64,000 bases of DNA from Morchella semilibera (taxonomy: Eukaryota; Ascomycota; Pezizomycetes; Pezizales; Morchellaceae), in NCBI GenBank assembly GCA_009192285.1, contig CM018609.1, forward strand, positions 1-64,000, read 5' to 3'. Both the position numbers and the translations under genes were made by a program. Below, piece after piece: positions 2,516 through 51,200 of this stretch; position 1 is the stretch's first letter, and every line of letters starts with the position of its first letter. The notes under the pieces are model-generated. The model ran no database searches. It was not told the DNA's origin and saw nothing but the letters and a program-made list of their open reading frames with translations.

Positions 2516-3505
2516 AGCCCACGGTCTTGCACACAACTAAACGCTCACCCACGGTCTTGCACACGCAAAAACGGTAACCCTAACTTACCCGGGTGACCTA
2601 CGGTCACCCTCTACCTTGCAAACAACTAAACGCGCACCCACGGTCTTGCACACAACTAAACGCGCACCCACGGTCTTGCACACAACTAAACGCGCACCCA
2701 CGGTCTTGCACACAACTAAACGCTCACCCACGGTCTTGCACACAACTAAACGCCACCCACGGTCTTGCACACAACTAAACGCTCACCCACGGTCTTGCAC
2801 AACTAAACCGCACCCACGGTCTTGCACACAACTAAACGCTCACCCACGGTCTTGCACACAACTAAACGCCACCCACGGTCTTGCACACAACTAACGCTCA
2901 CCCACGGTCTTGCACACAACTAAACGCTCACCCACGGTCTTGCACACAACTAAACGCTCACCCACGGTCTTGCACACAACTAAACGCTCACCCACGGTCT
3001 TGCACACAACTAAACGCTCCCACCGCCAACGGTCTTGCACACAACTAAACGCTCACCCACGGTCTTGCACACAACTAAACGCTCACCCACGGTCTTGCAC
3101 ACAACTAAACGCTCACCCACGGTCTTGCACACAACTAAAACGCGCCACCCCACGGTCTTGCACACAACTAAACGCTCACCCACGGTCTTGCACACAACTA
3201 AACGCGCACCCACGGTCTTGCACACAACTAAACGCTCACCCACGGTCTTGCACACAACTAAACGCGCACCCACGGTCTTGCACACAACTAAACGCTCACC
3301 CACGGTCTTGCACACAACTAAACGCGCACCCACGGTCTTGCACACAACTAAACGCTCACCCACGGTCTTGCACACAACTAAACGCTCACCCACGGTCTTG
3401 CACACAACTAAACGCTCACCCACGGTCTTGCACACAACTAAACGCTCACCCACCGGTCTTGCACACAACTAAACGCTCACCCACGGTCTTCCACAGCACT
3501 AAACG
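2515..3505. repeat. 30-bp minisatellite, about 32 copies
   Basis: The unit is 30 bases, containing CACGGTCTTGCACACAACTA followed by AACGCTCACC. Two units at 2517–2575 are followed by telomere-like bases (GGTAACCCTAAC), then about 30 further units run from 2605. GCT and GCG variants alternate at about 3165–3360, giving a 60-bp higher-order period. Copies with small indels break the register near 2750, 2800, 3020 and 3140. The unit length is divisible by three, so both strands show long spurious open frames with ten-residue periodicity. I do not call them genes. Confidence 0.97.
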
Positions 3506-4379
3506 GTCAGCCACTGTCTTTCACAGTCCTCTACGGTAAGCCACTGTCTTGAATGGCATGGGTTGCGGATTTCTTCTCCGTCATGAAATATCACTCGCAC
3601 GAGTTTTCCACAGCCAACCCGCCGGCGGTGATTTTCGGGTCCCGGTGATTAGTGGGGTCATTCTATTAACCAGCACATGAAAGAGCCCACTTCACCAACA
3701 CATAATAACAGTCTTTGCGTACCTCCACACTCACCCCATTGCTCGTACTCACTCTCACTCGCTCCGGGCTAGCAGCACCTTACTACTTCCGCCAGTGGTG
3801 GTTCTTATGTGGGATGATTAATCCCAATTCGCCAGTGTTTACCAGAGGTCGCAACTTTGGGCCCGGAGTTCGTCTTCTCATATTTTATTTTACTGTTTAC
3901 TTGGAGGTAGTGTGGTCGACGGGTTGTTCCCGCTCAGCACCTTACCCCAAGATGGCAGTCTACAAGGCAATTATTCTTCAGGCAACTGCTTCAGGCAACT
4001 CCTTTTGTTCGCTCGGGTAGCTCGAGGTATTATTAGGTAATAATGAGTATACGTATATATACATGAGCACCTCGGAACCGATTATCAGCACCTTGTTATC
4101 TGGGAGTAGCATTATATCACATATTTGCCTCGATTGCCTAAACACCTCCAGGCATCAATCCCGTTGCTCGGGCAAAACATAGCAGCCCCCCTAAAAGGCC
4201 GAGGCATCTCAAGCGTTTGGCTCTGTTCGCCTCAAGAGCCTCGTGGACCCTGTTTGGAGTTGTGGGAATGTACTCTGCCTGGGAGAAAAGGTGTGAGCTT
4301 GCGCCATAGATTCCGGGCTGCTCGCGTGGATGAATCATAAACAATCAAGTAAATCAACAGGCGTCAGAAATTGATAGAT
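3506..4379. other. Non-coding stretch, no gene seen
   Basis: The minisatellite decays into single imperfect units up to about 3545. After that I see only unique sequence. Short open frames (for example 3715–4020) lack ATG context, domains or repeats. A reverse-oriented copy of the scattered GAGTGATA motif lies at 3580–3598. Confidence 0.5.
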
Positions 4380-8725: not shown

Positions 8726-9600
8726 ACGCCTTCATCCCGCTACAATTGAGTACCCATCAGCGAATCTTACCGAACCCAGCGAGTCAAGCAGTCATCGAGC
8801 GCCCAATCATTCAGCGAATCAAGCAGACTTAACCGTGAAACCTCTCTGTGCTGGACAAGCATGAATACTGGCCTACCTGCGCATCTGGGCTTTTCAAGAA
8901 ATAAAAACCTTTTATATGGGTATTATCACGTATACTAAGATTCAGAAAACTTCAGGCTGAGTGAAAGGTTGGTCTAATAGCGACATCAAAAAGATATCAT
9001 ACTCAAGGCCAAATCAGACTATATTCGCGCCGACAGAAGCAGGAGACCAGACTGAAAATGATATGCATAAAGTCGGTAACGTAACCCCAGGATGACAATC
9101 CCGCAGCGCGAATCAAGAGATAGACACTCAAGTCGAAAGGCAAGGTGCACCAACGAAACAAAAGTAAGTAATCAAGACAAAAAGAGTGACGACATCCACA
9201 ACCCGTGGATGTGTTCTTTAAAGACACCAGCGAGATTAACAGAGTCGTCAGTTGAATGAGAGTAAGAAGCTTCTTCAAACTTGGGCGACAGCAGACGGTG
9301 CATTCAATGAGACGTATCGGTACGATTCTTACCCGATACTGTATCTACATTGTGTAGGTTGCTCATCTGTATATTGTAGCAGCCTCGGCAGATCACGGTG
9401 GAGAGGAGTGATAACTCATGATCATGTATCGGAAGAGTTTCCAGGACAGTCTGTGCGCTGTGAGCTGCTTCAACCTCCGGGTTGGGGAGAGCAAGATATC
9501 CATACACTTTTAAAAGTGTGAGAGTTCTCAAGTCAAGTGTTTCCGTGTGTAACTTACGCGCACTGTTGTTATAGCTCACGTTGGTAGATAATCTGCTCTA
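8726..9600. other. Non-coding stretch
   Basis: No supported gene. It contains one copy of the scattered motif (GAGTGATAACTCATGATC) at 9406–9423 on the + strand. Confidence 0.4.
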
Positions 9601-15100: not shown

Positions 15101-16580
15101 TGACCCCCTTTCTGGTACAATTCTCCTTTGTTTCTATTTTCCTTCGTACGGTGGATGGCGGCGGAGGCAGAGGTAGTTCTGTGGCAGTGTGCCTGTGGTA
15201 TTTCATAGCCAGAAGGCTGCATTCAATGAATGAATTAAACGAGATAAAAAAAAAAGAATTTGTGATATGACAAAGTGAGACCGAGTGATATATGATGATT
15301 TTAATGTGCCGGGAAGGACAAAGCACACGCCGAAGCAATGACAAGATCGGCAAAAGGACGAGAAGGGGTCCTAGGGGTTTGGTAGTGATGTTCAGGATGA
15401 TATGAAGTGGAACGGTTAAAAGGCTGTTGGTCGGCTTGCAAAGGCTCCACCAAGATATTATCGATGGTACCGGATACCAAATCAAATCTACAAGTTCCGA
15501 AACGTGCACCAGCAAGATTTCCTCCGTGTCATATTATACTCTGGGCCTCAGGGGACTCAATAGACCTTCAGGGGCCCCAGGGGACTGTCAGGAGAGTCAG
15601 GAGACTCAAACATAAATGGTAAAGTTATATCGTATTTTACTCATTGGATTGATACCTGTTATTGGGCGTAGGTCCTCGTAAAGAGTTCGTTCGACACCAA
15701 GGATGTCTTCTTCTCACCCACTCCTAGACCACCGGTTCCCACAGATTGTCTATAGGGTTTAAAGTGCCATATCCTCTACACATGATAGACAACCCTACCA
15801 GCCAAACCCAAAACCTTTGTAGCATGAGCTGTGCTGGTTTGATGTGCTGGGTGGGTTTGAAGAAATACACCAAGACCTGGACCTCCAGCAACTCCAATTA
15901 TAACTCCTATAACCCCTCCCAACAATCCTGGAGCGGTCCCACTTTGGATATAGAATATTAAACAGGCGGTTACTCATAATCTCAACATATACCAACAATT
16001 ATTAGCATTTGCATTGTCAGTGGTAGTTGTTATCAGTCGACTTTAGCCATTTCAGGTGTGGTTTTGGTTGCTTTACGGCATGGTGCTGTACTTGCGGCTA
16101 GAATAGGTTTCCACCAGGTTTGTGCGAGAAAACGCTGTTGCAACACAGAAGTGGTGGCAGAAACCTATTTTCGCGGCAAGTACGTATCACCACATCGCAT
16201 TATCATTGGGAAATCAGATACACACACGGGGACAGGCAGATAATGGGCTTTCTCACCTTGAGGAAATATTTTCAAAAACGAGCAGGAAACCTTACTAACG
16301 TTGGTTCACATTCTTCCAAGGTGGTGGGTGTTGGGCTATTGTTCGTTCCCTCTCAGCGAGGTTTCCTGGTCAGAAAGATGCCGGATGGAGCAACCCAACT
16401 TGGTAGCTTTTCAGGTAGGAGGACCAAGGGCGCGTTCCATAGAAGGCTAGTTGTCACTGCCATGGAAAGCATAGAACTAGCTGGAATGACAGATTAAGGC
16501 CTTAGTAATCCAAGTAAGCGTACGGTCGGGAAGCTTTGAGGTGAAAGTCTATGCTAGAAGGACAACGTTACTATATTATT
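12183..16580. other. Gene-poor stretch
   Basis: No gene I can support over 4.4 kb. Open frames reach 126 codons (13949–14329, +, hydrophobic patches, no ATG start) and 140 codons (15093–15515, -), but none shows a family signature or plausible splicing. TTAGGG-type bases occur at about 14623 (AACCCTAACCCAGCA), a word that recurs at 21850. A copy of the scattered motif lies at 15283–15300. Short direct repeats of CAGGGGACTC lie at 15545–15600. Confidence 0.4.
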
Positions 16581-20567: not shown

Positions 20568-23500
20568 CGAGTGACATCCTATGATCCGAAAATATATAAC
20601 CACCGCCCCGGAGTTCTCATACTTATGTCGACGACGGACTCAGTGAACTTTCCTCCTACAGCCTTGCTGAACTAGTAAGAATACCCAGTATGCTCAGTCT
20701 CTGACCCTCGCGAAAACGTTAAAGTCCAGTATAATGTCAGTCTTTAGTGCCCTGGCATTTGTATTTTTATCTATTATGAACAACGGATTCATTATCCAAT
20801 GAGCTAATCTCGGACCAGCTCCTGAGGTTCCTTCCTGGTAAGGAAAAGGTTAGGTAGAAATCAGGGGGAGATAGACTTAAGCCAACCCATTGGGCACATG
20901 ACTTACGAATTTATGGAAAAAGCTTGGTAGCTAAACATAAGATGTTTGGTACACTGATTCTTGTTGAGTGAAGTATTATTTCAAGTATAGGGATCTCGTG
21001 AGAAAGAGAGCTTGCTTGTGAACCGATAATATAACCGACCAAAAGCAGTTGCCTTTCACGATATAAGAGTGGTATATGGACACGAACAGGCACTGCATAG
21101 TTTACTAGGAATATGTAGCGTACCGGTCACCGGACCCAATGGGTATAAAGGCCATAAATCAATACTAGGCTCACTACAGCTACCCGAGGGCTACACCATG
21201 ATCCGAACCTAGCTACAACGTGGAGCGGGTGATAGCGGGTGACCAACATGCAAGTGATAGTTTATGACGGCGATACGGAGGTGGCAAAACACTTTCCTTA
21301 TTTCACTCGTTACTTGTGGCAAAATAATTAAAGAAGATTTCCCGACATTTTGTGTATTCTTAAGGAACTTGTGGGGCGTCAACATTAAGTACGCGAAATA
21401 GTTAGAGACCAGGCCCAAGCCCGAGATTATCAGGTAAAATTTTTAAATATAGGTTCGTCAGAACGAGAGAGAGAGAGCTGGAAAACAGTTATCAAATGTA
21501 TATATAAACAGAAATCCTCTTCCGCCGTTATAGGTCTGTCAGATAAGCGTGGTACTATAAAACATTGTTATATCCAAAAAAGGTCTAGCAAGGTTGGTAT
21601 AAACGAGGCATAAACACTTTTCCTGCAAGATATAGTGAAAAAGAAAAACAGCTTACTCAACCAAAAGTAATAATAGGATCTTGCTAGCCGTGCTGGTCTA
21701 ACCCGTGAAACAGGTGCCACTCCCGATAATCTATTCACTACAAGTTTTCACATTATTTTCTTAGGCTAGAGCAAAGATCTAACCTACTAGAACTACTATT
21801 TACTGTAAAAAGGATTTGCGAAATTCCTGGCGTTTCAGGTAAGAACAAAAAACCCTAACCCAGCATGGCAACCGTCTATCCAACAAAATATACCTTAACT
21901 AGAAATACTAATGTCACAATACGGTGTGGGAAATACCCTGGGTGAAGACGTCACGCAGGTTAAATTGAGTTACTAGAGTGAAAAGTTAGCGGGGACGGGG
22001 GCAGAGGGGTGGGGGTTCTTCAGGCCCATAGTTACACCAGGGGTAGGAACTAATACCTATACACAAAGAGAGAAATATTGATTACAAGTAACCACTCAGT
22101 TGTGCTACATTGCTGTGAGAAGTAACGACCAACCCCGTATTGCCGAGAGTAAGTGATGGAGTCAAAATCGACGTTTTATAGACATACACTTCTGCAACAT
22201 AATTAATACATTCATGAAGAAAGTACATGACGCCCAGGATGTACAGAGCGGCCGGTAAACATTGTAATGGACTAAACAATTAAGAAATACCGGAGTCGCC
22301 GGGACGTAGAGAGAATCTAGGCTCAGTACAGAAGTTATTGACCGACGGTGCTCGTGCAAATTCATTGTTGTTTAATAGCCAAAAACTTACAAACTATGTG
22401 TCAATCCTAATTATATTATACAAAATGTACCATAATGTAATCCTCTCAAGCGACAGAAGAACACGAGTGATAGCTGGTGATCCGGTCTCAAAACGTCATT
22501 CATCGGATATCATTTTTACGTATTCTGCGGCATTAGCTGGGAGCTTGAGCTATCGTGAGACTATAACCGTCGCCTTGAACATTGGAGGCTTTTGTTAGCC
22601 ATGTAGAAGTAACATTTCCACCCAGGCGGCCGACAAACAATATCTTGGGGCCGGGAACCTACCCTAAGCTTTTCCGGAATCACAGAACCCGCAAAGGTTC
22701 TCATGGATTCCATCTCACTCTTGAAGGCACAAGCTCTGGCCCGACCCGATTCATGGTCACAGTTTGGCTGGCGATGTGAAGGAGGGGTCGGTGGGCTTAG
22801 GCTGGAGTAGACGATACCCGCAGGTAGATATTTATTATAACGTATCGCGGGTTTGCGTTCTCGTGATTGTTATTTAAATAGCCCGTGGAAAGAGCATTGA
22901 GAAATTTAGATTGTCAGAAAGCTAGAGCGTTCTAATAACCCGCAGGATTGCATATTTTCCGATCGTCTATGTTTGCAAATAGGGTAAGAAATAATCCTGT
23001 AAATGTCGGGGCTGATGAGGTCTCTGGATAGTTTAAGAGAGGAAATACGCCCTAAGCGGAATTCAGTGTAGCTGATAATCAGTATGAGGTGAATTCTGGC
23101 GCTCTTTGAATGGGCAGGCTTAGCCGTGAATGTAGTATTACGGTGCTAAGGCAGGGATACATGGACCGAAACCGACAGGTGAAGGTAAATAGAGGTTCTA
23201 GTCCTCGTCATACTCATTCTAACATGTTGCGGGATATGTATCAAACTGGCGTCTTGTGATTCATTTTTATATGGAAAGATTCGTCACAAGTAATCAGTCG
23301 AGTGATAGTTCGTGATCGGAAAACTTCCACGGCACTCTACACAATTGTCGGCAATAACTAGAAATTTATATTCCGGGCTTGGCTCAAGCGCTTCAATGAG
23401 CCTACCGTGTGTCTAAAGATAGGTTGGTAACCCATAACACCACCTGCACCTGATGCACGTACGTGTATTTACACCACAATTTTGCCTGCAAACGCGCATT

Positions 23501-26500
23501 CTGGTGGCGTTCCGTCCGATGACTTACTACCCACCGCTGTACAATGACTTGTACTACGTCTATCATAAACAGGTTCCGTTAAGGGAGGTAAGGCCCCACT
23601 GTCCCTTGACCTAGCTAGTTGTGACAAGTTGGATTATCACCCAGAGTAGTACTTTTCTTAACGGTTCTCACTCTCAGCCATTCCCCGGCCAGATTATGCT
23701 CCCTAGTACTATTATGACTACTAGAGCACCCTAAAAACAACAACTATCAGTACGGGACTTATTTGAGGTTTTGGTTTCATGGAGGTTGCATGAACCTTTC
23801 CAAAGAATCATTAGTTTACTCACAGCATGTGAAAAAATGCCGACCAATCACTGCGGGAGAGCTGCAGACGCAACTACCGCTAAACGGATAAGTAGAAAGC
23901 CTGCGGCCTTAAGGGAATAGAGTGCATCAAAACTTGTTGGTACGAGTTTGTGAGGGTTTGGATCGGGCTTTGTTCAATATCAGAAGAGTATAGGCCGTAA
24001 CACGTTTGAAGAAAAAGTTACATTGATTAGCATGATTTGCCCCGATATTTTTCTTTGATAGGCTCGGCTACATAAGCAAACGTATAGGGGTTTCTCGAAC
24101 ATCTTGCTTTACCTAGACAGGCGGGTGGTTATATGGCTGACTTCATCGCCGGGCGAAACACAATCTTCAACGAAACACACCGAGCTGAACGCGCCCCACA
24201 CGCAATAGCACCCGTATGTATATATATTGGATTTAAATTGAATCCGCCTCGAATTCTGTAGAGTTTGAATTGGCTCAATGTTCACCGGTAAACGCAATGA
24301 TCTGGCCTGGGGCTACTTATAGGTTCAGTCCTTACTTTGATCGATGTCCCATAGCGACCCACTAGTGTAAGCTGAATAGCTTAATGTAATGCCATATGCA
24401 CATTCTACACCAAGTATCTATGGTTTCTCCGTTTAGTTCCATCTTTCTAGAATTGGAGTATCACTCGGGCTTAAGTTCTTGATTATTAGTAGAATTAGTT
24501 TAAATCAAAGGGATTTGTACTTTTCAGAGCGCTAGTAGTCTTTTATAATCTTGAAACTATGAACAAAGCATTCAAATGTCAAAATAGTCCTAAAAATGCT
24601 TTTCGGGAATGGGTAATAATACCGAGATTTCACCTACAATTCTTTTTTATCACTAACCACGATCATTACTTCATTTCCGCTATTCTACTATCCTCAGATA
24701 TGTTATTTCAAAGATTTTAGCTCTATTCCCGGAATAAAGACAAATAATCACAGGGGTACTCCGATAGCAGTCACATAACACGCAAATTACTGGAAATTAA
24801 AAAACAGCTTGAATAGCGTTGACAACTAGAGGAGATTAGCTATATGTTATTTGAAGATTGCCTTATTGAGATAGAATTAATGATGTGTCGCGTTTTGCGA
24901 AAAGCAGAACATCCATGCGCAGGGGTAGGTTTAGCCACAGGTCCTATCCATATATGACTCTTGCATGTGATTTGGCTGGTCGACTACAACCCAACACGGA
25001 TATAGCATAGGCTTTCAAGTAACGTTTTACCTGGGTAAAAGCAACGTACGGAGTGTGGAGTAGCGCGGGTATGGGATGGATATCCCAGCTAGGCGGCACC
25101 CATGCCGAAACGTAGAGACTAAATATGAAACGAGATAGTACCAAGCCGAATGATATTATAATATAATGGGATGAAGGAAACTATAACCTAAAAGCTCTAG
25201 GATGAATGAAGTAGAGTTTTGATGGAACGGTACATGTTTTTTTTTTTGAACATTCGTCCGCCTCAGAGAGGGTCAAATGATATTGATAGATATCGTTCTA
25301 TAATAGTTAGAATATATGATCAATCAAATGAGACATTTTCCGAGATACCTGCAGTACCACATTCTTTTAAAATGGTCGGCAGAGCACCACAAATACAACC
25401 GGTGGCGGTGTTTTGAGAGATGATCCTCCTTAGGGATTATATTCGTTGATAAAATTAATAACTAAGAACTTTGAAGGCGGAAATGGCAGAGAATAGTCTA
25501 TGGCGGGATTTGTGAGGCCGAGTGATATCCTATGACCGAACCACTTACGAGATTTCTGACAGGGACTGCAGAGACTAACGACTGCGCCAAAGATTGTATG
25601 CACACACAGTAAGGCTTAGCATATTCGCATCTTCGTGATGGCAAACGTTGCTGTAAACATCGTAGGATGAAATTTAGAGAGATATATTTGCTAAGGAAAC
25701 ACAAGTTCCGTTCCCTCCGAACACTAGGGTTTAGCAAGAATGGAATGTCGGGGAGGTGAAATAATGAAAGGTTTCTATGTATTGAGTATATTTGGACACT
25801 TACATAAATGTTAAATAATAATGGCGGTATTCCAAACCCACTCCGTAACAGAACATGAACCATTGTACTGACCGGAAGAGAGTTTAACCTTAGAATACAC
25901 CATATGACCCCCCTAGGGTTCAATGGTGCATACCTCCCCCGGAAACGTCAAATACAAGTATTGAATCGTTCTCCGCTTATTAGTTGACGAGATATATTAA
26001 AGTATAGTAGCAACGGTAACATAGGAGAGGCCCACAACACATCACATTATATGTTCGGCGCCAGCCACAAAGTCTGACTCTTGCAAGAAGGCCAAGCATA
26101 CACATGCTATTATTCTCAACCGCCTAACAAGCTAGACTTTGCTCAAAAGCGGTATCATTTATCGATAATAGCAGTGCGTGGGCGGGGCGGGACATATAGG
26201 GGATGACAAAATAAGGTAGAGATCACTTCAATGGAGACAGGAAGCTGTAACAGAGGAAGATTTGAATACAGGAAACACTAACTTACATAGTCCATAGACC
26301 ATAAATGACTAGGTGCGCTCTTTCTATGGTGAGTGATAGCTCATGACGGAATTGTTTCTGGTAACGGGTGTTTAACTTTTCACATTATTGGCGCTCTAAT
26401 GATTAGAGATGGACGTTAATGTAGTTCAATAGCTGTCCCCGTCCTATGTAGGAGTGTGACCTTAGAATAGGGCTCGGAAAACATGTTATGCCAGGTTCTG

Positions 26501-26996
26501 TACGGTCAAGAGAGTTTTCCAACGGGCGCTATATCTAAACAGAAAATATAGATGGGGTTCCGCCCCCTCAAAACAGTGACTGAGGGTATAAATGTACAAA
26601 GCTCCCGTGTAGCTTTTAGCGGAATGAGAGAAAATGGAATAAATTAGTTTCGAAGCCAATTCTCGAGTCGAGTGATGGCGCATGACCCTAATAAGTTGCA
26701 TCAGGCGATGGCTCTTTCTGTTAGAACAGTGCGAATACATACTAAATCTAGTTCAACTCCTCAACCCGTATCCGTAGCCGCATAGATATGGTGTACGCTC
26801 AAGGTGAGTAGGGGGCGGGCATGTTGCAGTATGGGACATAAGTGCGGATAACTTTACCGGAAAGATACAGCAGGTCGTCATTTAAGAGCGTAAGATACTG
26901 CTGTACCAACGTCGTGATGCTACATACGGGAAAGCTCTAACTTTTTAAAAATATTTTGAAAGAATTCTCGGGAAGCGAGTGATAGACCATGATCCT
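20568..26996 (+). repeat. Dispersed ~20-base motif, gene-desert cluster
   Basis: A motif close to CGAGTGATAGCTCATGAYCS recurs at 20568, 21185 (degenerate), 21225, 22464, 23299, 25519, 26331, 26670 and 26976, all on the + strand. The fixed parts are GAGTGATA, a variable 4–5-base spacer, then ATGA or GTGA and C/T-C. Flanks share no similarity beyond the motif, so these are not ordinary transposon copies. Outliers lie at 3580 (-), 9406 (+), 15283 (+) and weakly 45702 (-). I find no gene over this 6.4 kb; the open frames are short and unconvincing. Confidence 0.6.
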
Positions 26997-31934: not shown

Positions 31935-33420
31935 TTAATCGTCTGAGTCAATGTTTATAGTTCTAGATTTCGTGACAGACTTTTGCTTTTTGCCTTTTCC
32001 TTGAGCTGCTTGCCGCTTGGCTGTAGCGGACCTCGTGTTTCTAGCTTGACTTTTCTTTGGCTCCGCATAGAGAAAGTCAGAGCCATCAGGATCCATATTC
32101 TCGTCTTCAGATGGTGGATCCGGCTTGGCCCCAGACTGAATTGCTGGGTCTTTATCAGAGCTTTGATCAAACTCTCCACCGGACTCATTAACAACTTCAT
32201 CGGTTAATGATGCAGCATCAAGATGCTCCTGCGATCCAATATGGATATGTTCCATAGTTTTATTAAGAGCTTTCCTTCCAAGTCTTTTCCTGCTAGGCGC
32301 ACCAGCAGGTGTTGTCCCTGGTCCACCAGCCTCCTCTGTCTGACTGGTCATGGCCCTTTTTCTTACAATTTTTTTAGGCGTCTTTGTGGCAAGATTAATT
32401 GAACTCTTTGCCTTGGTAGCCTCGACAGTCTCTGCTACTTCAGTTAACCCATTCGCACCCTGCCTGTTTCCTGCTCCATTGTTGATTTTTTCCCGCTGCT
32501 TTAGTTCCCTTCTTTCCGGCTTTTAAATTTGGTGAGTTCTGTCCTTTTCCAATTTGTGGTGCTTCGACCTCAGTTGCGTCAACTGACGGTCCTTGATAGA
32601 TATGGGTCTTGAAATGTTTAGGCATGTCAAACATTCCGGTCGGCTTCTTGCTCATACATGGGCATGCGGGCGGAAGAACTTTGCTTCCACGCCGTGAAAC
32701 AGATTCAGTGATAGTCATCGTTCTCACTTCCAATTCCGCTCCCCAGTCCTTTCTATCCTTATCTAGCAGCTCAATTGCCGAAATCCAGTTCTTGATAGCT
32801 GTTATCAATTTTTCACCAGTACTATGGAGTAGCTCATACTCCAAAAGATCAAAGACCAATCCAACAGTACTATAGAGATCATCGGCATCGTTCCCATACT
32901 GAATTTCGTTCGTTAGACAGCGTAATACTGTGTTAATTCTGTAATATGTAGTCCAGGTGTAACCCCCAAGCAAACCGCCTGTCACGGTCAAGACTCCATA
33001 AATCCAGCCCGCTGGTACAAATAAAGCATTTTTTCTTGTAGTCTTTACGATCCTACCACCTTTCAGGTACGGTGCTATTAGGACCAGCTTGGAGCTTAAA
33101 GTCAGCCGGCTATAAGTGTCTGATTGTTTGCTTTCATTATCTTCAAGCTTTTTGTGAAGGAATGCTTTATCGTAGAACTGTTTCTCATTTTCTTTTGTCG
33201 GAGGCCAGAGGAACCATATTTTCTCGGTACCGCCAACTGATACTGCAACATTGTCCTGACCCCGATCAACATGAAGATCAACCCAGGAGTGGAGTGGAGT
33301 AGCATTATATCCAGCATAACCTGTTCTATGACCTCTTTCGAGCGAAACAGGAATAGATATCCCGTACTGGTTATTAAGCTCGGTAGGACAGATATCCAAA
33401 TGTACTTAACTTCACTAGGA
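31935..33420 (-). pseudogene. JmjC-type protein gene, 3' half (copy A)
   Basis: An open frame from about 33417 to 32440 encodes HSWVDLHVDRG followed by GTEKIWFLWPP and, about 75 residues on, FVPAGWIYGVLTVTGGLLGG. This has the order and spacing of a JmjC fold: HxD iron-binding motif, then the C-terminal beta strand. The usual distal iron-ligand histidine (GWIH in relatives) appears as Tyr, so catalysis is doubtful. A basic, low-complexity tail with KKQK- and KRQ-type nuclear signals follows (32440–31935) in another frame. A one-base slip near an A run at about 32490 would explain this. The upstream exons are lost here but present in copy B. Known JmjC proteins hydroxylate or demethylate histones; here that is inference. 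Confidence 0.6.
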
Positions 33421-41002: not shown

Positions 41003-42026
41003 CTATAAAGGATGCAAGATAGAACTCATTTTATATGCATTTACAATACTAGTGTCAAGGAGCCAAAAAAAATATGGCAACCAATTGCGACGGACCTTTT
41101 GCTGAATAGGATAATAAGATCGTAATTGATCTGCAATATCGACGCCTCCCATATTAAAGTTGTAGTCGTCAATAAAAGTGGGAATAGATAATCGCATACG
41201 AGCGTGGCTACCAAACAAAACACGGGCTACATGCATTGGTGCTACTAAGTTTAGGCCGTCTCCGTATACGCATAGTTGTATCCGAAACATTGTGAATAGT
41301 TGTCATAAAAAAACTGAATTGTTGTCTTGCCAGACAAGACAACATACTCCGTCAACAACAGCACCACTCAGGTGTCCCAAGGTAAAATAGTTTTTGCCTT
41401 TTCTTTCTCTATTTTTAGGACTGTAGGGAATCCTGTCGCATCCACCCTTGTTGTACCAGCTGCACCTATTCCTAAATTATCTCGTAATGCACAGAATAAT
41501 GGCACATTGGTAAATAAGTTGTCCATTATGATGTCAAAATGTCTGGATTGGTACGGTAGAGTTTGCGCAAGTGCATAAACTACTGATGCCGTTGGTGTTA
41601 AATCAGTAGGAATTGAACCAAAATCAGTTGAAGTAGGAAATGCTTTAAGCTCTGCAGTTCCAATACCTCTTACACCAGAATAATATAGGAAGGAATAGGT
41701 ATAGCCACGAAAGGATAAAGCCCATATTTTATACCCTTGTTTTATTGGCTTATTCCTTATCTTTATCGTATGTTTGCTTCTTCCAAAAAATCGTACTATC
41801 ATCTCATCGACAGATACTTTGGTTCCAGGAAGGAAGTATTTCTGAAAAGCACCTCGCAGTTTTGAGGAGAGTGGGTCAAGTTTGTAAAACCATTTGCTAT
41901 CGTCAGGTTTAGGAAGAGTAGGATCGGAAACGTGAAAATATCGCTTGATTTGCTCAAATCGTGCAACCCCCATTGAAGAACGCACGAGAGCATGTAAAGT
42001 ATTTCTATTAAGGTAATTATGTAATA
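41003..42026 (-). pseudogene. piggyBac-like transposase (DDE_Tnp_1_7), broken
   Basis: Reading right to left, the frame contains FEQIKRYFHVSD, then KVSVDEMIVRFFGRSKHTIK and RNKPIKQGYKIW. This is the classic PGBD motif around the first catalytic Asp. HFDIIMDNLFTNVPLFCAL follows as the second conserved Asp region. The C-terminal part, DDYNFNMGGVDIADQLRSYY, lies at 41003–41290 in a different frame, with stop codons and frame change between (about 41290–41370). The N-terminal domain and C-terminal Cys-rich finger are missing. The open frame continues upstream into TGTCGCTTGTATG repeats, which are terminal DNA and not protein-coding. A typical piggyBac transposase is ~550–600 residues; about 350 are recognisable. 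Confidence 0.88.
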
Positions 42027-42027
42027 T

Positions 42028-42223
42028 ATATGAAATATATCCTATGTATGTGTCGCATGTATGCGTCACTTGTATGGTGTCGCTTGTATGTGTCGTATAT
42101 GTGTGTCGCTTGTATGGTGTCCCTTGTATGTGTCGCTTGTGTGGATGTCGCATAAATGATTTCTGGGGCGGAAATCGTGGACCTATTCTGCCAGGACACC
42201 CCACCAGAAAGCCCTATAATTAT
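42028..42223 (-). mobile_element. Subterminal repeats and end of the piggyBac-like block
   Basis: Imperfect units of TGTCGCTTGTATGGTG fill 42050–42150. A near-palindrome GATTTCTGGGGCGGAAATC lies at 42158–42176, and the terminal sequence CACCCCACCAGAAAGCCC then TATAAT lies at 42200–42223. The same end occurs at 1418–1446. No TTAA is present at this edge, so a canonical piggyBac junction is not shown, and the end may belong to a different element nested with the transposase. Confidence 0.55.
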
Positions 42224-42225
42224 CT

Positions 42226-43769
42226 TCAAGCTTTTTGTGAAGGAATGCTTTATCGTAGAACTGTTTCTCATTTTCTTTTGTCGGGGGCCAGAGGAACCAT
42301 ATTTTCTCGGTACCGCCAACTGATACTGCAACATTGTCCTGACCCCGATCAACATGAAGATCAACCCAGGAGTGGAGTGGAGTAGCGTTATATCCAGCAT
42401 AACCTGTTCTATGACCTCTTTCGAGCGAAACAGGAATAGATATCCCGTACTGGTTATTAAGTTCGGTAGGACAGATATCCAAAATGTACTTAACTTCACT
42501 AGGAGCGTGATCACTATATTGAATTTGATGAATGACGGTAATGATATCTGCACTGTCTGGTTCGGTCGAAGTGCTAGGCTTGGGGGACGCCAGAAAGCAT
42601 GCAAGACTTGCTTTTGATTGTGGGGGCTCCATGTTTTCCCATACCTCGCTAGGTTCAAATAGAAGCGGAACCTCCATTGATGGGTTCACGAGTTTATCAT
42701 GCTGCTGAACGGCTTTAAAACCACATGCATGTTTGGCGAGGACGCCCCAAATATCAGGCCGCATATCGGGGTACCTCGCCTGATAGGTAGTTAACTCTTG
42801 CCATAGCTCTCCCACGCCTGGGTCACACTTGTAGGGGCAGATTTCATTGTGCTCCGGCTTGCTTGATTCTGGAATCGTTATTAGGAACTTGCACCCAAAC
42901 AATTTCCACTTGCAATCGACTTCTTCGGTCCTGCAGTATATCAGCATTCTGCCGATGGTTGCGGGATAGAGTGGATGCTCTTACTTAATATTATTAACAT
43001 ACTTAGCCTCCCACTTGATCCTTTTATTTTCAAGTCGTGCTTCCACTCTTGCTTTATGCTCCTGCCGTTCCGCTTGAGAGCGACTTAAGATCTTTCCTGG
43101 TCTTTGAGCCGGTGTAATAGGCTCGGACAGCGATGATACTGAAGGTGGCCATGCCTGAAAATGGATAAAACGCGGTGGCGGACTAGGAGATATTTTTGAT
43201 GCTTGACTTTGTTGATAGTATGGCTGCATGATCGGCAATCGAGCAGCAGATTTGAAACCTGGTGGTGGTGGTAATGCTGTTATTGGTTGGGGGAAGTGGT
43301 ACTGTTGAACTCCGGAAGGAGGTGGCATCTGTGAGAATAGCGGAATATGGTCTTGTGAGGATGAAGTTGATGAAGGGATGCCGGAAGCTGCTCTCTTCAG
43401 TGGATTAGAGGTGATAGGATACCTGACCGATGAGGCCCCTGCATCAACAGGGGATGGGATAGATGGAATCAGTAGCGGAAAGATTGCCGGTAGAGTTCCC
43501 CTTGAGTTCAGTGAAGTGGCTTGCTGGGCTGCTGAAGTGGCTTGCTTGGTTGGTGCCGGGCATGCCACAACTGGGGGAATTGGGGAAACCGAGGCTGTAG
43601 CAGAGAAGAACGCAGATGATATATCAGCACCCTGACTGACTGATGATGGCTTTGGTGGAAGATCGTGACGAGCCATTGATTGTTGATGGTTCAAGGTTTG
43701 GATGCATGATGGAGAAAGCGACAGATGTGTGGGGTGGGTATAGAGCGGGGAATGTTGTCCACGCCACAT
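42226..43769 (-). pseudogene. JmjC-type protein gene, 5' half (copy B)
   Basis: ATG at 43769 opens a Pro/Ser-rich, probably disordered region. A second possible ATG lies at 43676. Exon 1 ends at 42985. A 54-bp intron (GTAAGAG at 42984 to CTGCAG ending at 42931) joins AA|G so that ...YVNNIK continues with TEEVDCKWKLFGCKF. Exon 2 runs through GVGELWQELTTYQARYPDMR and DICPTELNNQYGIS into the JmjC core HSWVDLHVDRG and FLWPPTKENEKQFYDKAF, then is cut at 42226 by the transposon end. About 500 residues remain, including a charged KAR/KRIKWEAK helix before the intron. This copy supplies the exons that copy A has lost. The first exon could be the disordered arm of a chromatin protein (inference). Confidence 0.6.
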
Positions 43770-43770
43770 A

Positions 43771-46640
43771 AAGGGTGCATGTATCTACGGTAGAGAGCGT
43801 TCTGTTGATCCCGGGGTATTGCAGGGATGGTTACATGTAGTTAAAATCAGATGTAGCAAGATGTATCCTTAAGCGTCCTGGCTACGGTGTACTCCAGCGG
43901 GCTGTAGGGGTCTGTGGCTACAATAACGCTCGAAGCCCACGGATTACACAGCAACCATGGGAATAGAGAAGTATGTGAGTGCAAGGGCGCCAGGGCCACG
44001 GGCGCGTGAAAGCTATAGAGGTGATAGAAGCTATCATGATGTCCACGGGCGGAGTGTGATACAGACACGTAGTGTTATACTAAGCTATATGTATATGTAG
44101 TCTGTTCTAGTACTTTGTATGAGGAGCCGAATCGGGTAGGTTGGCTTCCTAATGGCTTCCACGCGTCAAGAAAGTATTATTCCTAGCAGTCTAGGAACCA
44201 AGATTCCAAGCGTCAAAAAATCATGTTTCCATATAGAGGTGAAGGGGTCGAAAGGCATATGATGCAGAATCATCGATTATCACCCACTTCAGAAATGCGA
44301 CTCCGCATAGGAGGATGTCAACTCACTGGCAGGGAGCCGTTTAGTTGTGGCCCTCATGATATAGAAAAGCAAGGGTCAGCGGATTCAATATATGATGGTT
44401 AAATACCTAGTATATGAAGGCACTGGGGGCGAGAGAATCATGAGGGGTGGCAGAAGCACGGGGAAGCCTCAGGTGCGAATGATATCATATAGAATCTTTA
44501 GAAGAATGCCTATACTTGCCAAAGTGCTTCCAGACAATGGTGTTATTTACGGGTTGAGCTGAGAGCAGTAAGCTCATAGCCCCGTCGGTGCTCCATGCTA
44601 CCAGGATGCTTGCATGCTTCCGGGAGTGCTTTCAAAATGCTTCTGGACTATAGTACTGTAGTTGGGGCCGGAGTATAGTTAGTGTAGTCCTAGCGGCGGT
44701 GGAGCCCAGTGGAATTGCTGGGGGCGGTGGGTCTTGTGAGTGCAAGGGCGCTCTAACCCATAGGGACAGAGAGGCATGCGGGCGCAAGGGCGCTAGGGCG
44801 ACGGGTCGCATAAAATCCATGAAAGCGGAAGAAGCCATAGCGTAAGGGCGCAAGGGCGCAAGGTGAATACAGATACATGTCGGGCTACTGAGCTATATGT
44901 AGTCTATTATGGTACCGTATATGAGGGGTGGAATCGTTTAGTGTAGCTGGAGTTTGTGTGTGTATGACGCATGCTAGGCTCCAAGGCCCTACATAGGGGA
45001 GGTACAAGGACTACACAACTCCAGGGGTGGAGTCACTCGTAGTATAGAGAGAGGCTCTGGCATCACTCCGATGCTATAGGAGATGCTTCCATGCTCCTAA
45101 GAGTGCTTCCAGAGTACTTTCGGCCTACAGTGGCGTAGTCGGGGCCGGAGTATAGTCAGAATACTCCTAGCCACAGGGTAGTCCTGTACGTGGTGTAATC
45201 CCAGCCATGGTGTAAGCCTGGCCACCCTGAGTTTTGGCTGCGGTGTAGTTCTGGGCGTAGTCTAGTCCTAGCTACAATTTACTTCAGTGGAATCACTGCG
45301 GGTGGTGGAAGCGTGTGGGCTCAAGGGCGCCTGAAGCTTACAGGATACATGGCAATCATGTGGACAGAGAAGCATGTGGGTGCAGGGGAGCTAGGGACAC
45401 GGGGTGCATAGACCCCATAGAGGCGACAGAACCAACAGTAGAAGGGCGCAAGGTGAATAGAGACACGTGGTGGGATACTGAGCTATATGTAGTCTATTGC
45501 AGGACTATATGTATATATGAGGAGCGGAATCGTCCAGCGTGGCTGGATTTTGTATGTGTGTGACACAAACTGGCCTCAAGGTTCTGTATGAAGAAGGCAC
45601 GATGACTACTCAATTCAGGGGGTGGAATAGCTAGTAGTATTGAAACAGGATTCTTTGCAGTCTAAAACCACAATTCTATGCGTCAAGGAAGGATACAGTA
45701 ACATACACTATCACTCGCCTCAGAATTGTGCCATGGCGGATGCCTCCAAATGAGAGGTCATGAACAAGGATTCACTGCAATCACCCTTCAGTGGCAGGGA
45801 GCACGTGAGTGTGGCTCCATAATGGTTTCCCTTGGAAGAGAGTGTAGAGACAGAGCCATTTGGGTACGGCCCCCCCATGCGCCAAAAAAGAAAGATTACG
45901 AAGAGGCTAAAACCACGATTCAATGGGCAACAAAACCATGATCCCATGCGCCTACAGAGAATGTTTTGATACGCGAGTGCCACTCGAAGGAGTATGATTC
46001 TAGGCACAAGCGAACTAACCAAAAAGTATGCATTTGATGCAGAATCATAGATTGTCACCCGCTTCAGAATCACGATCCCACATGTAACGAGAGAGGATTC
46101 ACTGCGCCCGCTCTTCGCTGGTAAGAAGCTATTTGGGTATGGGTTCCAAATTCAGGAGTCAGGGCGTGTGAGCTTGGGTGCTGTGGGTGCGTTGGGTTTG
46201 TATATGACCCGTAGTTGTCCAGCGTGGCAGTATTTTGTATGTGTGTGACGCGAACTGGCCTCTAGAAATTGTATGGTGGAGGCGCAAAGGGTACACAATT
46301 ACGGGTCGGAGTAGCGGACAGGGTTTTGACAGGGTACATGTTTGCGTGGCAGAGTAGGGAACGGGGTTTTGACACGGTGATAACATTCATAAGTGTTCCG
46401 GCGTCTTGGCATCAGTCCTGAGGGTTTGGTAGTCGAAGCGATGCAGCGATTGTTTAGAAGTTGTTAAGCGAGGAAGGGGTGTGATGAGGGGGGGTTGTCG
46501 TCATTGGGTTCTAGGAGATTCTATAGCGTGATGGATTTGTAAGATGAATAGCGAAGTTGGTGGGAAGGAATACGAGGTGTGGCTTCAATGGGTTTCTATG
46601 GATTTCAAATGCCCTGATGTATGCGTCATAGCGGACTAGT
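43771..46640. other. Repeat-filled stretch, no gene
   Basis: Occupied mainly by the long repeat family described at 37960–46390. The open frames (for example 45720–46073 on the minus strand) cross repeat words that differ between copies and are not conserved in frame. Confidence 0.5.
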
Positions 46641-48275: not shown

Positions 48276-51200
48276 TCATAGCCGTGTCAAGTGTTTCCGG
48301 ATCTCTGCGGTCGAACTATGGGTTGGTGATATCGCGCCAGCGTCTAGAAGCATATTGACTATCCCCTTATCACGTCCGCGGGCCGCAGCTTGGAGAGCGG
48401 TACCATATTTCCCCCCCTGAAGATTAACATTGGCACCCGCGTCTAGAAGCATTTTGACTATCCCCTCATCCTGTCGATAGGCCGCAGCTTGGAGAGCGGT
48501 ACCATATTTCCCCCCCTGAAGATTGACATCGGCGCCCGCGTTGAGAAGCATTTCCACTTTCTCCTTAGCACCAATGTAGGCCGCAGCTCGGAGCGCGGTA
48601 CCATATTCCCCCCCCTGAAGATTAACATCGGCGCCCGCGCCGAGAAGCATTTCAACTACCTCCATAGCACCTCCGTAAACTGCAGCTTGGAGAGCGGTAG
48701 CATATTTCCCCCCCTCAAGATTAACATCGGCGCCCGCGTCGAGAAGCATTTCAACTATCTCCTTAGCACCTCCGTAGGCCGCAGCTTGGAGAGCGGTACC
48801 AAATTTCCCCCCCTGAAGATTAACATCGGCGCCCGCGTCTAGAAGAATTCCAACCTTCTCCTTAGCACCTCCGTAGGCCATAGATTGGAGAGCGGTACCA
48901 TATTCCCCCCCCTGAAGATTAACATCGGCGCCCGCGTCTAGAAGGAGTTTGACTATCTCCTCGTTGTCTTGGTTAACTGCAGCTTGGAGAGCGGTATCAA
49001 ATCCCCCGCACTGAAGATTAACACCGGCGCCCGCGTCTAGAAGGATTTTGACTATCCCAGTCCTGCCCCGGTAGGCCGCAACTTGGAGAACGGTGCTGTA
49101 GCCCACAGACAGCTCGTCCACAACGTCGCCGCACACTGAATCGGGATCGGCACCAGCGTCCAAAAGGATTTGGACCACTGGCGCATGGTTGCTAAGCACC
49201 GCATTGCAGAGAGCGTTCTGACCACCCACTATAGAGCTAATGTCCGCATTGTATTGCAACAGTAATTTTACCATTACCACACTTCCTGAACATACACTAG
49301 CATGGAGAGCGTTGTCTAAATTCGTAAACCTACCACTCTCGAGAAGGATCTTCGCCGAATCAACCATGCCATTTACACAGGCGTAATACAAGGCAGACCT
49401 CCCATTCCGATCCAACGAACACACTTTCGCCCCTCTAGCAACCAAAACCAAAACTACAGGCTCACACCTAGAAGACGCTGCAGTTATCAGGGGAGTATTT
49501 CCATCCGAGTCCCGATAATTAATATCACAACCACGATCCAGCAAGTCCTTCATCGCGGACGCCGACCCACCACGAGCCACGTCACTGAGCACGTCATTGA
49601 GCTCCTCCGCAACGTCCGCATCCGGGTATAGCTGGAAGTATAGAGGTAGCAAATCAAGCCCTGATAATAGACCTAGTGGGCTAAGGGAGCAATAGTCCCG
49701 TGGAGCACCCCGGTATATGACTCGTCCCTCCATGCAGCCAACCCATACATATTCATCATGATCACCATCCTTGTTATAATAGCCATAACGCCACGCGGAG
49801 CGATCATAATCGTCATTACTAACATCAGCATAGTCAGGCACCGCCCTCTCCGGATTCCCACATGTTGCAAGGATGGCCCATCGAAGAACATCATAATCAC
49901 CCCCCATTAAGGACCTGACGAGGCTGAGACAGTCCGGTGGCGGGTTTACTAACTCACGCAGATGTAACCCGAGAAAGGTACATGCATATTGGAAAAGGTC
50001 TAGTCCCAAGAAATTCGTAGAGTGTATTTCGCAATCATATATACTACACGGCCCCAAGGAGCACAAGTACACAAGTATGCTCTGGGTCACAAAGGCTCTC
50101 ATGCTCGTACCTTCCAAATGCTCGGGGTTCCTGGCGTCCAAGAACTCTTGCACGGTAAAATGGATCAGTCTCACTGTCCCACAATCATTGGTGACTAGGC
50201 CGCAGCACGAAGAGAGAACAGCGTGTTGTGAATACACCCACTCAAGATCATCGCAGCGCTTTGTGGTAGATTCCAGAGCTACCGCGAGTACCAACTCTCG
50301 AATTGTTAATGGTCTCTTTGCGGTAATGACCCAAGCCAAAGCACGGTACGCCAGCTTTCTTCTGGTCTCGGTCTGCTCATTTATTTTTTTCAAGATCCGA
50401 TCGTAGATATCATGCATCGTAGCGGGAAGGGAGTCTAGTGCATCTCGTATATCCTTCACTGATGGCTGCTCGTAGATAAAGTCAAGCTGACATTTCACCC
50501 ATAGGAACCTACAGATCCATGGTCCATTCAGCGTCGTGGTTGGTCCGGTACTTAGAAGATTAAATACTTACATTCCATTAGCTTGTTGCATCAGCCTATT
50601 TCGAATTGCTCCCTTTAGTGTTTTGCTAATAGCGCAGTAGTCCTGGTTTCGGCTTTCCAACTCGTGGTCGACATACATTGCGATATCACCATCTACCTTT
50701 GTCACCTGGATAGGGAGTACCGCGAACTTAGCAGACAGGATATTACGTTCAATATCCACTTCCCGTCGGCTAGCGATAAAGATCCTTATCTTACAGGAGC
50801 CCGCAACCCGCCCGAGATAATTTATGAGATCGTTCCTGCTTTCCTTACCGCATTCGTCTAGCGCGTCGATAACTAGGAACACCTGTTTGAAGTATTTGAC
50901 CACTTGTTGGAATAAATCCTCAAGTTTGCAACGTTTTGGTTTAACATCATTGTCGATACACGCTCTATAGAGGGCGAACAAGGGATTCGGAGGTTCCTCC
51001 ATTCGACGGCACAGCTGCTTGATCCATATTCTGAGAACGTCCTGCGGTCCGACTGTGATCTGGAAATTGAAGTAGAAATAGGCTATTCCAATAGCCTTTT
51101 CGTGTTCATACTTTGTCTTGATGCTCTCTAGAAGTGTGGATCTGATTCATATATTGTTAGCGCAGTTTCTAGGTGGGGGTGGGTATTGGGGCGCAGGTGC

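Follow-up and report, generated by a model that had tools for sequence, protein, structure and literature searches.

To our knowledge, little is known in filamentous fungi about the DNA signals that set gene-poor chromatin, replication direction or boundaries. Long, asymmetric recognition sequences are familiar from other systems: CENP-B boxes and pogo-type sites are each read by two helix-turn-helix units and occur in same-strand arrays, and CTCF, an animal protein, has a long asymmetric motif that is found in oriented clusters. At the RNA level, transcripts of the DSR/Mmi1 system of fission yeast each carry several same-strand copies of the DSR, a hexamer with loose spacing. For Sap1 of fission yeast (Schizosaccharomyces pombe), direct-repeat binding has been proposed at the Ter1 fork-stalling sites, the recognition helices being spaced by about one helical repeat, and TAACG is given as the half-site (PMC6053445). 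Sap1 binds inverted repeats as well.

The morel motif analysed here is like Sap1 at Ter1 in that two like half-sites form a direct repeat one helical turn apart, and the effect of Sap1 is directional; its half-site, GTGAT/RTGAY, differs from the TAACG of Sap1. It is also unlike the DSR in having 14 specified bases and a rigid gap. The letters of the CENP-B box presumably do not match the morel motif, and this candidate was rejected after a six-frame search of the genome had returned 0 matches to CENP-B_N.

Sequence and sampling

The window was the 64-kb stretch of Morchella semilibera DNA at C7:1-64000. Its first base lies at a telomere, and mixed TTAGGGTTAG units occupy positions 1-172; the telomere unit, CTAACCCTAA, equals the unit reported for Morchella crassipes in the accessible part of PMC7014384. 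Genome-wide counts refer to 56,756,124 bases in 23 scaffolds. Parallel matches at almost equal coordinates were found for the scaffold pairs C9/C10, C12/C13 and C21/C22, and 601-base samples were identical within C9/C10 and within C12/C13 (the two pairs sampled). The assembly therefore appears to carry duplicated scaffold copies, so that unique motif counts would be roughly a tenth lower than those given below, as estimated from scaffold lengths. Core conservation between duplicated scaffolds was uninformative, since both sampled pairs were identical over the 601 bases.

Loci were picked for tandem copies (L037-L044), for a MITE (L030-L036) or for clusters (L049-L052), and a 200-kb stretch of C1 was picked for its frequent exact matches. 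The codon model was trained on 200 kb of C1. A description of the motif was not found in titles and abstract openings, a coverage mostly exclusive of subscription papers and preprints, and the word 'motif' is absent from the accessible part of the Morchella crassipes genome paper (PMC7014384).

A same-strand cluster near a telomere

The sequence-only reading had reported nine copies of a motif, all on one strand, in a gene desert, and both statements held. Between 20568 and 26994, nine copies reached a score of 17 or more, every one of them on the + strand, with a tenth, degenerate copy among them. Copies with an exact core were located at 22464..22482, 23299..23317, 25519..25537 and 26976..26994; those at 20568..20586 (CGAGTGACATCCTATGATC), 26330..26348 and 26669..26687 each carry one mismatch to the core; and a pair 25 bp apart comprises 21226..21244 and 21251..21269, the second member having two mismatches. 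The degenerate copy (CGAGGGCTACACCATGATC; 21185..21203, +) likewise has two mismatches and also turned up as a member of a repeat. Within the cluster, the shortest spacing is 25 bp and the longest 2,220 bp. When the 6.7-kb sequence was resampled with a Markov model (n=200), each resample contained a mean of 0.02 such sites and at most 1. From 3.5 to 32 kb, frames starting with ATG, GTG or TTG were all shorter than 150 codons, and the codon model marked no coding-like segment there. The cluster in the window is thus confirmed as an observation.

Outside this interval, the window holds an exact core at 9405..9423 (+) and copies with one mismatch at 3579..3597 (-) and 15282..15300 (+). When up to one mismatch was allowed, its whole length yielded 11 matches, compared with a shuffle mean of 0.12 and a largest shuffle value of 2.

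Solitary sites and repeat-family copies

Two kinds of copies were distinguished. Those of class (a) share a longer common stretch as part of a diverged repeat family at C1:5,706-5,725 kb and, on the - strand, at window 44-46 kb; those of class (b) are solitary and lie in non-repetitive DNA. The C1 representative of class (a), at C1:5,706,600-5,725,300 (L019-L021), is an 18.5-kb array with interspersed coding-like pieces in which 23 of 24 motifs are on the + strand. In the window, family copies were found at 44268..44286 (-) and 46043..46061 (-), together with a copy in the same area whose flank is less family-like (45699..45717, -). The intervals C1:5,706.6-5,725.3 kb and window 44-46.2/46.3 kb were left out of all class (b) counts.

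For the 6.7-kb window cluster, the sole other match in the genome was a 70-bp MITE piece, in a search that skipped very common words and may miss weak or simple repeats. This genome-wide repeat search was applied to the window cluster, and the other class (b) sites were compared with the sampled sequence, where a self-match overlapped 5 of 77 strong sites, including 4 that belong to tandem arrays. The possibility raised earlier that each copy is embedded in a longer diverged repeat accordingly applies to the class (a) minority elsewhere and not to the window cluster. Lacking the longer stretch of class (a), class (b) sites would not simply be its remains. A transposon terminal repeat was not recognised either: the window cluster has neither an element between its copies nor a longer common flank, the latter being a feature of class (a) copies.

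Form and abundance of the motif

The model built from the copies reads C-GAGTGATA-NYYY-RTGAY-C over 19 positions, with an exact core of 18 bases; beyond these positions, information was at most 0.28 bits per position. Columns 3-7 (GTGAT) and 13-17 (RTGAY) form a direct repeat with a shift of 10, which was the best direct shift tested (score 4.05, with a column-permutation 99th percentile of 4.08; about p = 0.01). Every palindromic register tested scored below 0. Among 56 strong solitary sites, picked by score, G replaced A2 in 2, A6 in 0 and A16 in 1, and position 13 was G in 19. Identification as a GATA-factor site was rejected because position 9, where a purine should follow GATA, is free in the pattern (100 exact sites: T36, G23, A22, C19).

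The exact core occurs 884 times genome-wide (440 forward, 444 reverse), as opposed to 0 for a reversed control, and with one mismatch allowed the counts are 4,412 and 47, so that the motif is far denser than expected by chance; exact copies are spread along the whole of C1. The gap is rigid. Shortening it from 4 to 3 left 10 copies genome-wide and lengthening it to 5 left 6; in a local sample, GAGTGAT and RTGA were paired at 41 gap lengths, one of which gave 48 matches and the rest 3 or fewer. In a gapped 4-mer pair scan of a masked, motif-rich sample, motif pairs stood at the top among the best 60 of 443 listed, low-complexity runs having been set aside. The motif barely stood out in a plain k-mer scan (CGAGTGAT, 66 observed vs 44 expected). 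Taken as a whole, the motif is present in thousands of intergenic copies throughout the genome and is probably under constraint.

Orientation and origin of clusters

The strand bias of the window recurs elsewhere over distances of up to about 3 kb. Neighbours less than 3 kb apart were on the same strand in 28 cases and on different strands in 6 (p = 0.0002), a count in which the window and L049 were excluded and tandems collapsed, the pairs being not fully independent and several loci having been picked for clusters or tandems; beyond 3 kb, 6 were on the same strand and 8 on different ones. The two least selectively sampled sets, which overlap, showed a modest bias (10 vs 4 in the 200-kb stretch, 9 vs 4 for a list of 100 exact sites on C1). 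Around 54 sites, 85 same-strand and 12 opposite-strand strong neighbours were counted at distances of up to 2.5 kb, with the window cluster included and each pair counted from both sides. Of the clusters picked, L049, taken from a listing of forward matches, has 6/6 copies on +, L050 (C1:1437800-1442100) 5/5 on - and L052 3/3 on -, and L051 consists of two + copies followed by two -. Strand polarity is local, the strands being balanced genome-wide (440/444).

The flanks had been described as unrelated. Within clusters, a weak likeness extends mainly over about 20 bases to the left and 10 to the right. In 130 within-cluster pairs at least 60 bases apart, among which large clusters weigh most, identity exceeded that between clusters at spacer positions 9 (45% vs 28%) and 11 (54% vs 38%), was equal at position 12, and amounted to 35% vs 26% at downstream positions 1-10 and about 30% vs 26% at upstream positions -20 to -1. 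A slight within-cluster excess was also present at -50 to -20 (p = 0.047; p-values include pairs closer than 60 bases). In L050, a right-hand extension, TATTAGA, is private to 3/5 copies. Tandem copies with a period of 18-19 bp occur at 8 places, including C1:25.8 kb and C1:5,704.6 kb, 6 of these places coming from a scan for 19 bp only. The near-flank sharing makes short local duplication likely and, together with the 18-19 bp tandems, suggests that clusters probably expand through very short duplications that preserve orientation, with mainly the core being kept afterwards.

Score distribution and position relative to genes

In 259 kb from which class (a) and window 37-47 kb had been left out, 69 sites scored at least 14, vs 0 in the reversed control, and scores of 8-14 showed no clear excess (43 vs 35); scores of 5-8 were found 103 times vs 71. 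Around 54 strong sites (2.5 kb; five tandem loci left out too), intermediate scores of 9-14 numbered 14 on the same strand, 24 on the opposite strand and 11 in the control, and scores of 5-9 numbered 62, 60 and 40.5, respectively. Within 300 bp of strong sites, the corresponding numbers for scores of 9-14 were 7, 1 and 0, which indicates that a few partly decayed copies exist nearby. Neutral decay is expected to leave many more partly mutated than intact copies; the bimodal scores and the scarcity of half-decayed copies thus point to selection as the likely cause of the kept core.

None of 77 strong sites lay in a coding segment, coding DNA making up 67.5 of the 324.8 kb sampled; taken alone, this would also fit a neutral element that is barred from exons. 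The median distance from site to coding segment was 2.8 kb, as against 1.6 kb for other non-coding DNA (32 sites of the 200-kb stretch, with a coding mask that was not overlap-filtered and covers too much). A promoter element was rejected, as the sites are farther from coding DNA than other non-coding DNA is.

Proposed recognition by a DNA-binding protein

Among the roles suggested by the sequence-only reading, a site for a DNA-binding protein agrees best with the evidence, and an RNA motif is less likely. With a recurrent fixed core, free flanks and clustering, the sites fit a homotypic cluster of putative protein-binding sites, and the motif may well be the directional recognition site of one sequence-specific, putative morel DNA-binding protein, a reading in which our confidence is even. 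A single protein with two like domains, arranged head to tail one helical turn apart, would read GTGAT and RTGAY as half-sites offset by exactly 10 bp and make further contacts with C-G-A on the left. The direct-repeat geometry would give each site a direction and, if binding is head to tail and directional, same-strand clusters would be meaningful. New copies would arise by local duplication of a segment reaching from about 20 bases to the left of the core to 10 to its right, and also as tandem units of 18-19 or 25 bp. Selection would then keep the contacted bases, the spacer and flanks would drift, and same-strand clusters would remain in gene-distal DNA. The rigid spacing, the asymmetry, the clustering, the short shared flanks and the bimodal scores are direct observations; selection as the cause, the protein, its binding and its role are inferences from them, and a polar chromatin or replication element is a guess at that role. 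It counts against recognition by a DNA-binding protein that an ordinary transcription factor has no need for polarity and that the sites are not promoter-proximal. The direct-repeat signal of about p = 0.01, the 0 matches to CENP-B_N, the partly decayed same-strand copies close to strong sites and the excess of scores of 5-8 (103 vs 71) weigh on the same side.

In favour of such a protein, matches to HTH_Tnp_Tc5, a pogo-type DNA-binding domain family related to CENP-B_N, numbered 44 in the genome, duplicated scaffolds and broken copies included, and several were inside open frames of more than 500 codons. No tight tandem zinc-finger array was seen among at least 22 zf-C2H2 matches (150 of 201 candidates scored; weak fingers could escape).

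More broadly, the sites might constitute a lineage-specific directional system of about 4,000 cis-elements that organises gene-poor morel chromatin through a putative head-to-tail binder, a proposal that we regard as doubtful. Such a system could act as a polar barrier to replication forks or transcription or as a nucleation point for silencing, with a logic like that of bacterial Ter and KOPS. A specific, abundant and directional motif whose natural copies run into the thousands and bring their own control for spacing provides a handle on its binder, and oriented binding-site clusters may form through very short local duplications.

Alternative explanations

It is possible, if rather unlikely, that the motif acts in transcripts (long non-coding RNAs, introns or UTRs), where a protein or guide RNA would bind it. 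Copies would then share a strand because they sit on one transcript, and clusters reach about 3 kb. At C21:2084739-2084776 (L044), a predicted 94-nt intron with GTATGT, CTAAC and CAG signals contains two tandem copies on the sense strand; the host is a WD-repeat gene that we take to be ELP2-like. These copies are equally compatible with an RNA role and count against a reading restricted to DNA. Another cluster, in sense, precedes a coding segment by about 120 bp, and a weak copy, also in sense, lies just past the inferred stop codon, with an intron allowed for, of a '-' gene at C1:5,783.6 kb. Of the copies no more than 300 bp from a coding segment, 6 were in sense and 2 in antisense, a third antisense copy being added by a second scan. 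Gene orientation was otherwise balanced, with sense and antisense counts of 14 and 14 on the 3' side and of 16 and 11 on the 5' side, which argues against action in transcripts.

The remaining signals are divided in the same way. The degenerate positions lean towards R or Y, as wobble pairing would have it, and A2 and A16 are G in 12-13% of copies when class (a) is included; in the 56 strong solitary sites, however, G is rare at A2, A6 and A16 even though G-U pairing would allow it. A G-over-C skew of about 0.09 was present on the motif strand within 200 bp. Words resembling branch sites and acceptors followed the motif in 13/99 cases in sense and 3/99 in antisense, an asymmetry that fell to 12 vs 7 of 76 strong solitary sites; control windows at a distance of 500 bp gave 10 vs 6 of 74. 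A structured RNA motif was rejected: the mean folding energy of 63 motif windows (-14.9 in sense, -12.6 in antisense) gave no signal relative to the control (-14.9), and Rfam returned 0 matches in the window at the gathering threshold. Fourteen specified bases with a rigid gap are, moreover, long for an RNA-binding protein.

A selfish or mobile footprint, in which the motif is the target or binding site of a transposase or similar protein and its copies spread and persist for that reason, appears unlikely. It would account for the short local spread of copies in the same orientation and for class (a), whose diverged repeat family lies near piggyBac-like and weakly JmjC-like coding pieces; LAGLIDADG target sites also have a four-base free centre like that of the motif. 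LAGLIDADG_1 (PF00961), the one family of this kind searched, gave 0 matches in the 23 scaffolds, which do not include a mitochondrial genome. The window cluster lies in single-copy DNA without an element and 5/77 solitary sites overlap a self-match, both of which speak against such a footprint, and neutral footprints would leave many half-decayed copies, of which few were seen.

A replication element, be it an origin or a polar fork-barrier site, is still less probable. Thousands of sites in same-strand clusters would suit it, as would a directional head-to-tail geometry like that of Sap1 at Ter1; the half-site is unlike the TAACG of Sap1 (PMC6053445), which counts against it.

That the copies are functionless remains of an older repeat or minisatellite is very improbable, since the core is kept while spacer and flanks are near background and the scores are bimodal, despite the tandem 18-19 bp copies at 8 places, the within-cluster near-flank likeness with its slight excess at -50 to -20 (p = 0.047) and the handful of partly decayed copies that lie on the same strand within 300 bp.

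Other features of the window

A minisatellite of about 33 copies of a 30-bp unit lies near the telomere, at window 2518-3525. The MITE piece at 23474-23546 is a left-truncated copy of an element of about 105 bp with terminal repeats GTACAGCGGTGGGTAATAAGTCATCGG, for which at least 39 other copies and at least 9 matches with the opposite terminal repeat were found (40 of 82 candidates scored). The areas 41371-43769 (-) and 32443-33399 (-) hold a piece of a piggyBac-like transposase (DDE_Tnp_1_7) and a JmjC match that falls below the Pfam cut-off, and they have a 373-column stretch in common at 93% identity. An open frame at 48276-50567 (-) encodes ankyrin repeats and a GPIID_WHD domain and contains 99-bp internal repeats.
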